Source: Oscillospiraceae bacterium
Lineage (GTDB): Bacteria; Bacillota; Clostridia; Oscillospirales; Ruminococcaceae
Length of the DNA: 52,956 nucleotides
Direction of reading: 5' to 3'
NCBI GenBank assembly: GCA_017462785.1
Contig: JAFTQJ010000024.1
Span: forward strand, 1 to 52,956
Part shown: piece after piece, positions 1 through 52,956 of the stretch
Layout: the number at the start of each line of letters is the position of its first letter
How positions within the stretch are numbered: position 1 is the stretch's first letter
The notes under the pieces: generated by a model
Told to the model about the DNA's origin: nothing
The model's input: the letters and a program-made list of their open reading frames with translations, nothing else
Databases searched by the model: none
Program-made: the position numbers and the translations under genes

Positions 1-140
1 AGGTTCAAAGGGCTTTGCCCTTTGGCGGGTGGAGGGTACGCAGTACCCTCCAAACATAGCCCCTCCCCTCGGGGAGGGGTTGGGGTGGGGGCAGTTACAG
101 GATGCCCAACCCTAAGAAAAAGGACTTTTTCTACAAGCTG
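1..140 (+). repeat. Intergenic repeat family, copy 1 (left end cut by window edge)
   Basis: GC-rich non-coding repeat also present at 4490-4624 (inverted), 48849-49011 and 52791-52956 (inverted). Modules seen in order are: hairpin CAAAGGGC/GCCCTTTG; hairpin GGAGGGTA/TACCCTCC; a C-run/G-run hairpin followed by more G-runs (about 60-94); a degenerate ACCC-rich stretch; then the right edge AAAGGACTTTTTCTACAAGCTG at 119-140. The left terminus (CAGTCTGTCGAAAAACC in copy 3) lies outside the window. It ends directly against the palindrome at 140-159, 54 bases before trkA. Confidence 0.85.
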
Positions 141-4489: not shown

Positions 4490-4624
4490 TTGAGAAAAGT
4501 TTTTTTGAGATGAACCCCAAGGATCCCCCCCCTCGGGGAGGGGCTATACTTGGAGGGTACTGCGTACCCTCCACCCGCCAAAGGACTTCGTCCTTTGAAC
4601 CCCACAAGGTTTTTCGACAGACTG
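4490..4624 (-). repeat. Intergenic repeat family, copy 2 (inverted, internally shortened)
   Basis: In its own orientation it starts with CAGTCTGTCGAAAAACC (edge at 4624). It continues with hairpin CAAAGGAC/GTCCTTTG, hairpin GGAGGGTA/TACCCTCC, and a C-run/G-run hairpin. It lacks the TTGGGGTGGGGGCA segment found in the other copies. The far end (about 4490-4510) is divergent, rich in A and T runs, and its boundary is approximate. The rest of 4413-4489 shows only AT-rich sequence. Confidence 0.82.
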
Positions 4625-4646
4625 AGCCGGTGCAAAGCACCGGCTC
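4624..4646 (-). other. Palindrome at left edge of repeat copy 2, behind mscS
   Basis: AGCCGGTGC AAA GCACCGGCT forms a perfect stem immediately after mscS in transcript order and directly before the repeat edge. It resembles a terminator stem, but the U-run is missing and the repeat sequence CAGTCTGTCG follows instead. Its position matches the palindrome before copy 3. Confidence 0.65.
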
Positions 4647-48384: not shown

Positions 48385-48825
48385 ATGAAAGTGACACCGG
48401 AGGAATACCAGAAAATGCAGAAAGAGGCGGCACCGCCGTCAAAGAGCTATATCAACATTCCCATGGCATTTCTGACGGGAGGGCTGATCTGTGTACTCGG
48501 ACAGCTTCTGCTGGAGGGGTATGGTGCAATGGGACTGGAGAAGGATGCAGCGGCGGCATGGACATCCATCACACTTGTATGTCTGAGTGCACTGCTGACG
48601 GGCTTCGGGGTATATGAACGGCTTGCCAAGCATGCAGGAGCAGGGACGCTTGTCCCGATCACGGGGTTTGCCAATGCGATTTCCTCCAGTGCACTGGAAG
48701 CCAAGTCCGAGGGATTCATTCTGGGCGTGGGTGCAAAGATCTTTACGATCGCAGGACCGGTGATCCTGTACGGCAGTACAGCATCAGTGGTCTATGGGCT
48801 GATTTACTATTTCTTTTTGCGGTAA
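48385..48825 (+). CDS. SpoVAC/SpoVAEb family membrane protein
   Basis: 146 residues with about four membrane helices. FLTGGLICVLGQLLLEGY at the first helix, GFGVYERLAKHAGAGTLVPITGFANAISSSALEAKSEGFILGVGAKIFTIAGPVILYG over the middle and end, all match PF03862. SpoVA proteins form the dipicolinic acid channel of forespores. Here it stands alone: no spoVAD or spoVAE neighbour and no sigma-G-like promoter. It may therefore be a stand-alone homologue with another membrane role. Start at 48385 has GGAAGGAG 10 bases upstream. Its stop is followed within 4 bases by the palindrome that borders repeat copy 3. Confidence 0.85.
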   Translation: MKVTPEEYQKMQKEAAPPSKSYINIPMAFLTGGLICVLGQLLLEGYGAMGLEKDAAAAWTSITLVCLSALLTGFGVYERLAKHAGAGTLVPITGFANAISSSALEAKSEGFILGVGAKIFTIAGPVILYGSTASVVYGLIYYFFLR

Positions 48826-48829
48826 ACTA

Positions 48830-48848
48830 TGCGGAGCATGACTCCGCT
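48830..48848 (+). repeat. 19 bp palindromic direct repeat, left of repeat copy 3
   Basis: TGCGGAGCATGACTCCGCT, a 6 bp stem GCGGAG/CTCCGC with a 5 base loop. Identical to 49012-49030. Sits 4 bases after the SpoVAC stop codon where a terminator stem would be expected. Confidence 0.85.
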
Positions 48849-49011
48849 CAGTCTGTCGAAAAACCTTGTTAGGTTCAAAGGGCGAAGCCCTTTGGCGGGT
48901 TGAGGGTATGCAGTACCCTCGCAATATCCCCCCCCCCCCTCTGGGGGAGGGGTTGGGGTGGGGGCAAACTTTGGGGTTCTCCCCCCCAAAAAAGACTTTT
49001 TTGACAAGCTG
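48849..49011 (+). repeat. Intergenic repeat family, copy 3 (complete, 163 bp)
   Basis: The best preserved copy. Left edge CAGTCTGTCGAAAAACC and right edge TTTTTTGACAAGCTG form imperfect terminal inverted repeats (CAGTCTGTCGAAAAA against CAGCTTGTCAAAAAA). Interior: hairpin CAAAGGGC/GCCCTTTG, hairpin GAGGGTA/TACCCTC, a long C-run, GGGGGAGGGGTTGGGGTGGG, then GGGGTT and a second C-run. Flanked on both sides by the same 19 bp palindrome. Confidence 0.9.
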
Positions 49012-49030
49012 TGCGGAGCATGACTCCGCT
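49012..49030 (+). repeat. 19 bp palindromic direct repeat, right of repeat copy 3
   Basis: Exact copy of 48830-48848. It ends 10 bases before the AGGAGG of the phosphatase gene, so it lies in that gene's leader. Confidence 0.85.
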
Positions 49031-49050
49031 GTACATATCAGGAGGTTATG

Positions 49051-49587
49051 ATGAAATTATATGTGACAAGACATGGCGAAACAGAATACAATGCCCTTGA
49101 CCGGATCAGCGGTGTCACGGACATTCTGCTCACGGAAAACGGCATTGCACAGGCGATGGCAATGGCTGAAAAAGCCAAGGAATACGGCGATATTCAGCGG
49201 ATCATTGCATCCCCTCTGAAACGTGCACAGATGACGGCTGGCATTGTCGGGGAGGTGCTCGGACTGCCGGTACAGACGGATGCACGGCTGACGGAATGGG
49301 ATTACGGCAGTTTTGAGGGCATGGACCGTCATACAAAGGGCTTTGCGGAAACCAAGGCTGAATTCGGCGTGAAGATGCCGGACGGCGGAGAATCGGTATT
49401 CCAGATCGTACAGCGTACATACAATGTGATCGATGATGTAAAACGGCTGTATCCGGACGAAAATGTACTGCTGGTATGTCATGGCGGCATCTGCCGTGTG
49501 ATCGACAGCTATTTCCATGACATGACGGTGGATCGGTTCATGCATTTCTTTATGGGGAATTGTGAGCTGAGGGTGTATGAGTTCTGA
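49051..49587 (+). CDS. Histidine phosphatase superfamily protein (phosphoglycerate mutase-like)
   Basis: 178 residues. MKLYVTRHGETEYN carries the RHG catalytic motif (His8). ASPLKRAQMTA gives the second Arg, EWDYGSFEGM the acid region and VCHGGICRV the second catalytic His. The size and motifs fit small phosphatases of the CobC/PhoE/GpmB type rather than glycolytic mutase; substrate unknown. Two ATGs are in tandem (49048, 49051). The second is preferred because AGGAGG is 5 bases before it and only 2 before the first. No separate promoter is clear between repeat copy 3 and the start. Confidence 0.9.
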   Translation: MKLYVTRHGETEYNALDRISGVTDILLTENGIAQAMAMAEKAKEYGDIQRIIASPLKRAQMTAGIVGEVLGLPVQTDARLTEWDYGSFEGMDRHTKGFAETKAEFGVKMPDGGESVFQIVQRTYNVIDDVKRLYPDENVLLVCHGGICRVIDSYFHDMTVDRFMHFFMGNCELRVYEF

Positions 49588-52790: not shown

Positions 52791-52956
52791 TCACAAAAAG
52801 TCTTTTTCTGGGGTTAGAACCCCAAAGATTGCCCCCACCCCAACCCCTCCCCCAAAGGGGGAGGGGCTATATTGCGAGGGTACTGCGTACCCTCAACCCG
52901 CCAAAGGACTTCGTCCTTTGAACCTAACAAGGTTTTTCGACAAACTAAAAGGACAG
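52791..52956 (-). repeat. Intergenic repeat family, copy 4 (inverted, cut by window end)
   Basis: In its own orientation it reads TTTGTCGAAAAACC, hairpin CAAAGGAC/GTCCTTTG, hairpin GAGGGTA/TACCCTC, CCCCTCCCCC-TTT-GGGGGAGGGG, then TTGGGGTGGGGGCA, hairpin GGGGTTC/AACCCC, and AAAAAGACTTTTTGTGA. The last edge touches the stop codon of the permease gene and lacks the ACAAGCTG and palindrome of copies 1 and 3. The other edge runs into the end of the window. Confidence 0.87.

Follow-up and report, generated by a model that had tools for sequence, protein, structure and literature searches.

A 163-bp unit lies between two exact copies of a 19-bp hairpin in a contig of an Oscillospiraceae bacterium, and this arrangement raises the question of how the hairpin came to be present twice. 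The original prediction, made for the 52,956-nucleotide contig that was analyzed here as a whole (the window), held that the unit is mobile and offered two answers: either a non-autonomous element inserts into terminator-like hairpins and duplicates the whole hairpin as its target site, or each element carries matched but copy-specific hairpins at its own ends. The flanks of the copies of the unit and of their transposase-bearing relatives were compared, as was the corresponding site in related species.

The 163-bp unit and its site in the window

The arrangement was confirmed in the sequence (Table 1). A unit with imperfect terminal inverted repeats sits between two identical copies of the hairpin TGCGGAGCATGACTCCGCT, the left of which begins, as predicted, 4 bases downstream of the stop codon TAA (48823-48825). 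The 18-base core of the hairpin was found at only these two places in the window when up to 3 mismatches were allowed, and two core matches were obtained in 0 of 100 shuffles performed as a window control. Folded as single-stranded DNA, the hairpin reached -7.2 kcal/mol (z about -4). A T run was absent after it (GTACATATC), and the terminator scan made no call there; the hairpin at the window site is a palindrome between two genes and not a canonical terminator.

None of the listed reading frames of at least 80 aa runs within the 163 bp, and the unit is without a transposase gene. It folds strongly (z -4.3), which we attribute to its inverted repeats. A structured RNA was rejected as the identity of the unit, with only two Rfam matches obtained, both far below the gathering scores. 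Inside the element, a stretch of 12 consecutive C residues (48928-48939) is a place where a sequencing or assembly error is possible. Two other family copies occupy the two ends of the window contig, as is expected because repeats break assemblies.

Table 1. Positions of the insertion, its neighboring genes and the other family copies in the window
Feature	Position	Strand	Evidence
SpoVAC/SpoVAEB-type sporulation membrane protein gene, upstream of the insertion	48385..48825	+	PF03862, E 8.2e-43
Left copy of the duplicated target hairpin (19 bp)	48830..48848	.	Sequence, fold, core search
163-bp non-autonomous element (MITE) without transposase gene	48849..49011	+	41 genome matches; ends common to IS1182-family elements
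Left terminal inverted repeat, CAGTCTGTCGAAAAA	48849..48863	+	Sequence, end consensus
Right terminal inverted repeat, CAGCTTGTCAAAAAA (minus-strand reading)	48997..49011	-	Sequence, end consensus
Right copy of the duplicated target hairpin (19 bp)	49012..49030	.	Sequence, fold, core search
Histidine phosphatase (branch 1) family gene, downstream of the insertion	49048..49587	+	PF00300, E 7.4e-45
Second family copy, cut by contig start; different hairpin AAACGGCTTTCGCCGTTT next at 141-158	1..140	+	Sequence match
Third family copy, partial; different hairpin AGCCGGTGCAAAGCACCGGCT at 4625-4645 adjoins the intact end	4514..4624	-	Sequence match, end consensus
Fourth family copy, at contig end; one end degenerate, duplication not readable	52795..52947	-	Sequence match

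Hairpin duplication in the MITE family and in transposase-bearing relatives

The predicted mobility was borne out by 41 matches to the unit in its own draft genome (2.58 Mb), which correspond to 40 loci, two of the rows being pieces of one element; the unit is a multicopy MITE. Its ends follow the consensus CAG..TGTC.AAAAA, which occurred 114 times in this genome as compared with a single occurrence of the reversed pattern. Matches at E ≤0.001, some of them partial, were present in 14 of the 61 genomes searched (own genome included), all from one genus. Larger variants of 227 and 284 bp were seen in genome G004 (L250 213-827); they have the same ends, extra internal sequence and an own duplicated hairpin each.

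Both ends were present at 35 of the 40 loci, and 32 of these had both flanks as well. When a duplication score tolerating one short gap was applied, 19 of the 32 passed, and one of them (L038) was excluded as a 9-bp low-complexity match. Thus, 18 of the 32 copies carried the same copy-specific hairpin of 14-36 bp on both sides. The flanks of different elements, compared for every fifth cross pair within each group, matched in only 1 of 859 cases. An earlier, stricter test without gaps had given 17/32 for own copies versus 0/992 for cross pairs. A hairpin was scored on both sides of 16 of the 18 duplicated copies and on the left only in the other two; the two hairpin copies were identical in 7 of the 18 and differed in the remainder. 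A convincing duplication was missing from 14 of the 32 copies, L038 being counted among them. In other species of the genus, the duplication was observed at 15 of the 19 elements in the fetched loci, a count that keeps one probably false pair (the second pair in L047).

The hairpin copies are direct and not inverted, as they were identical and not self-complementary in 42 of the 57 duplications. Inverted copying of the hairpin was rejected as a rule, with only L010, L029, and L109 appearing loop-flipped. The loop of one hairpin copy is flipped relative to that of the other in these three elements, as would result from an in-place inversion of one hairpin.

A search for DDE_Tnp_1_6 in relatives revealed that ends of the same kind bracket IS1182-type transposases. 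Seven IS1182-type loci with such ends were found (L071-L076 and L109), and direct copies of a hairpin were seen in two of them, namely L072 (1532 bp, with a palindromic duplication of 31 bp) and L074 (1473 bp, with a duplication of 33 bp). In L109 (1522 bp), the two hairpins were the same apart from a flipped loop, L071 and L073 lay between different hairpins, L075 had a hairpin on one side only, and L076 had one end only. A more distant PF13751 protein (L069) was rejected as a relative, with no such ends or repeats found. The transposase proteins, which carry PF13751, PF01609, and PF05598 domains in part or whole, scored best with NF033551, the model of the IS1182 family. This model was run on six pieces, separately from the 80 loci of the genome scan described below, and three of the six exceeded its cut-off of 270: L109 with 386.1 (E 2.7e-115), L074 with 357.7, and L070 with 270.8. 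L071 (232.4) and two L072 pieces (201.1 and 183.5) stayed under it. L070 1-1068 (G000 contig 50), which is cut by the contig start, was the sole IS1182-type transposase found in the own genome; no matching right end was seen beside it, and a hairpin does follow. In the MITE-rich relatives G002, G004, and G020, no transposase match at E 1e-10 was obtained.

Scanning of GTDB genomes yielded 356 relatives; 80 loci were kept from these. Their record titles named Clostridia, Bacillota, or clostridial genera in all but one case (L169, Candidatus Hydrogenedens). A recognizable end pair was found at 64 of the 80 loci, with a median length of about 1570 bp, and 58 elements were left after the 16 loci without such a pair and 6 more without one flank had been dropped. 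The CAG..TGTC.AAAAA ends are thereby common to the MITE and to 64/80 transposase loci; because the end pairs were scored partly on this consensus, the end base counts lean towards it. The flanking hairpins had no part in the choice of ends. L112 proved to be the same record as L074 (100% identity).

Duplication of the whole hairpin, over 20-39 bp, was found in 39 of the 58 transposase-bearing elements. Another 16 lay between two different hairpins (L130, L140, L142, L145, L150, L153, L154, L163, L164, L166, L167, L175, L176, L185, L189, and L191), and 3 fitted neither class. The 39 duplications comprised 38 distinct sequences, L122 and L124 sharing one hairpin sequence, and the two copies were identical in 35 of them. 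Hairpins were present on both sides of 55 of the 58 elements, and shuffled flanks gave a hairpin in 41 of 3600 cases.

The complete genome of Oscillibacter valericigenes contains 16 element copies by our count. Nine of the 13 copies with both ends in one piece passed the duplication score, and one copy split in two also had, by eye, the same hairpin at both ends. The remaining four were L193 and L194 with a hairpin on one side, L198 with two different hairpins, and L203, which was partial; L201 and L204 had one end only. In L194, a T tract directly follows the element, which has the appearance of an insertion without duplication.

Thus, the comparison of flanks that had been proposed as a check gave matching flanks for the larger part of both sets (18/32 own copies and 39/58 insertion sequences), in line with the prediction that the hairpin is the target and is duplicated whole, and in its target behavior the MITE equals the insertion sequences. 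Its terminal repeats match those of IS1182-type elements (NF033551, PF13751) of the same genus and of other Clostridia, from which the window element differs by being without a transposase. Judged from sequence, the 163-bp unit is a transposase-less derivative of an IS1182-family clade of DDE insertion sequences.

Element-free sites and the geometry of the duplication

The same pair of genes (spoVAE-phosphatase) was found in other species of the genus, with a gap of at most 157 bp in 16 of them; these counts leave out G011 (795-bp gap) and G006 (one of the two genes on the fetched stretch). The element was absent from all 16. By eye, a clear hairpin lies between the genes in 13 of the 16 species (not in G005, G012, and G014), and a duplicated hairpin was seen in none of the 16. 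The empty-site check suggested with the original prediction thus turned up the hairpin at element-free sites and no species with two palindromes. The evidence comes from one site, that of the window element. A candidate second element-free site (L014/L027) was set aside because its neighbors matched on one side only; the L251 and L252 stretches fetched for it were scanned for ends. The motif TACAT follows the hairpin in 11 of the 16 element-free species and also the right-hand hairpin in the window. The hairpin that precedes TACAT between the SpoVAEB-type and phosphatase genes varies in sequence and may have a role in the operon.

The duplication was centered on the axis of the palindrome, within half a base, in 38 of 39 insertion sequences and in 15 of 17 MITEs, a count that leaves out L028 and L038. 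In the insertion sequences, its length rose with the span of the palindrome (Spearman 0.55, p 0.0003); the relation was not significant in the MITE set (n = 17; Spearman 0.36, p 0.15). Duplication and best palindrome ended no more than 3 bp apart in 32/39 insertion sequences and 13/17 MITEs, and the palindrome overran the duplication by more than 3 bp in 7/39 (by up to 10) and 4/17 (by up to 16), respectively. In the latter cases, only the core of a longer palindrome has been duplicated, and the term "whole" hairpin is not always literal.

The right copy started with A in 30/39 insertion sequences and 10/18 MITEs, and the left copy ended with T in 34/39 and 15/18, respectively. With 5 of 8 bases as the threshold, the hairpin was followed by a T run or preceded by an A run at 30/39 insertion sequence sites and 9/18 MITE sites; the same count taken 12-20 bases further out was 14/39 and 2/17. 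Therefore, most of the sites of insertion sequences look like terminators, and the window site does not. The prediction of terminator-like targets accordingly stands for most sites of the transposase-bearing relatives and falls for the window site, where the T run is absent.

Tandem arrangements were also found. An array in G004 (L248 1763-2859) consists of six related units in alternation with the hairpin AACCGCCC..GGGCGGTT and has a period of about 182 bp. Such an array would be expected from insertions that each double their own target or from unequal recombination between copies. In G021 (L052 1260-1584), the hairpin AGCGGCAGTATCTTCGCGATACTGCCGCT is shared by a complete unit and the first part of another.

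Known systems, alternatives and proposed mechanism

With bacterial MITEs in general, the window element shares its shortness, its multicopy and non-coding nature, and its inverted-repeat ends; it differs in that the duplication is long, variable, and palindrome-following instead of short and fixed. Classical MITEs have a fixed short duplication of 2-10 bp, unlike the duplications seen here, which measured 14-36 bp in the MITEs and 20-39 bp in the insertion sequences. Group IIC introns insert beside terminator hairpins by means of intron RNA with a reverse transcriptase and without target duplication. The unit resembles them in its hairpin-adjacent insertion and differs by being without an intron-encoded protein and by having inverted-repeat ends and a target duplication.

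For the IS1182 family, the direct repeats given in ISfinder are 0-60 bp long. Palindromic targets are reported for some of its members, without detailed data, in PMC5678879 and PMC4923244, which cite Siguier 2015. The family is among those overrepresented between convergent genes according to PMC9208149, which suits terminators as targets. IS1182-related transposases act with or without target duplication, as stated in PMC12056078, and ISPse1 (Paracoccus, IS1182 family) is listed with the figure 4 in a table row of PMC3281130; taken for a 4-bp duplication, this figure means that the family is not uniform. The accessible part of PMC9484755 contains nothing on target duplication. IS1272/TnSha1 of staphylococci, as described in PMC4923244 and PMC5678879, targets hairpins, several of which are terminators, with no primary sequence preference; the hairpin is lost, entirely or in part, and no duplication results. 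The elements studied here are like IS1272 (IS1182 family) in their hairpin target and unlike it in that they duplicate the hairpin, whereas IS1272 deletes or replaces it. Hairpin targeting is thus already known for this transposase family, and duplication of the whole hairpin was previously only a hypothesis in the accessible literature: Wan et al. 2017 (PMC5678879) drew duplication of a whole stem-loop as a hypothetical pathway (legend of Fig. 13b), which is now matched by the pattern at 38 distinct insertion sequence targets. In our literature search, which had most subscription papers and ISfinder outside its scope and saw several sources in part, no demonstration of whole-hairpin duplication with a length set by the target was recognized.

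The hairpins on both sides of 55/58 transposase-bearing elements would also be explained if the element carried its own end hairpins, matched by gene conversion or copying, and brought them to each new site. These hairpins, however, differ between copies (38 distinct sequences among 39 insertion sequence cases), 13 of the 16 element-free relatives already have a hairpin at the same intergenic place, and, outside the hairpins, A-rich sequence precedes and T-rich sequence follows, as at terminators. Because the hairpin is present at the element-free site and its sequence is specific to each copy, element-carried hairpins are not needed; this second answer of the original prediction is largely refuted, and we consider it extremely improbable. 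Replacement in the style of IS1272, in which the element supplants the target hairpin without any duplication, has in its favor the same transposase family and the same kind of target (PMC5678879, PMC4923244) and a few copies with one hairpin only, e.g. L194 with the T tract directly after the element. It is nevertheless a very improbable account of elements that have the hairpin twice in 39/58 transposase-bearing and 18/32 MITE copies.

The mixed hairpins call for a separate explanation. A longer duplication spanning two neighboring hairpins was rejected as their cause: within up to 1200 bp on each side of 32 elements without duplication, including all 19 mixed-hairpin elements, the best direct repeats reached 11-16 of 24, with the exception of L014 (19 of 24, inside its own long hairpin). 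The two ends of one element might attack two separate hairpins, which would lead to transposase-made deletions or inversions between terminators. Such attack would agree with the 16/58 transposase-bearing elements between two different hairpins and with L198 (the same copy as L185), the flanks of which have their best matches on different contigs in six other Oscillibacter drafts (G069, G079, G081, G084, G092, and G093); these split matches suggest that L198 may lie at a synteny breakpoint. Homologous recombination between two copies gives the same picture, however, and needs nothing new; draft-genome chimeras would give it too, and no reciprocal partner was present among the O. valericigenes copies compared (L201, L204, L207, and L208 excluded). 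The missing partner fits deletion by either route. Recombination between two copies is the simplest cause of mixed hairpins; attack of one element on two hairpins is possible, and we regard it as rather improbable.

The likeness of the ends, the copy-specific duplication of the hairpin, the dyad centering, and the single hairpin at one element-free site are direct observations. On these grounds, we consider it highly probable that the unit is a MITE of the IS1182 clade, that the transposase joins the ends symmetrically to a palindrome, and that repair duplicates the hairpin over a length that depends on the target. An IS1182-type transposase acting in trans would bring the two MITE ends together. 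The ends would be joined to symmetrically placed points of the target palindrome, on opposite strands and on either side of the hairpin close to the base of its stem, with cuts presumably placed at the 5' feet of the stems. Repair of the gaps would then yield a complete hairpin copy on each side of the element. Since the ends would be joined on both sides of the palindrome, it would be the target palindrome, not a fixed stagger, that determines how long the duplication is. DDE transposases usually produce a target duplication of nearly fixed length, which results from the spacing of the two active sites.

The feature recognized is probably an extruded cruciform rather than the dyad symmetry of B-form DNA. 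On balance, and with reserve, we favor a clade of DDE transposases that reads the geometry of the extruded cruciform and joins the ends at the feet of the stems, such that any palindrome would be duplicated whatever its length. Independently of a cruciform, the transposase might recognize a dyad-symmetric or A...T-bounded sequence, with two monomers cutting where the symmetry ends. The frequent A at the start of the right copy (30/39) and T at the end of the left copy (34/39) in the insertion sequences point in this direction, and the dyad centering fits either view. Direct reading of bases, however, does not easily account for duplicated sequences that differ by site and have a variable length (19 bp in the window and 20-39 bp in the insertion sequences), and recognition of this kind appears unlikely, although less so than the other alternatives considered above.

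If the transposase indeed reads cruciforms, each insertion would recreate two intact targets, which would explain the tandem arrays of hairpins and elements and also how the elements spread with little damage to the host. A low cost of insertion for the host is likely, and a terminator should survive, because the outer hairpin copy keeps its own flanking sequence and the T tract, if there is any. For genome annotation, it follows that elements of this group double terminator hairpins, form tandem arrays, and lie at contig ends. As the duplication follows the palindrome and is symmetric about its axis, structure-guided choice of targets becomes testable with designed targets.
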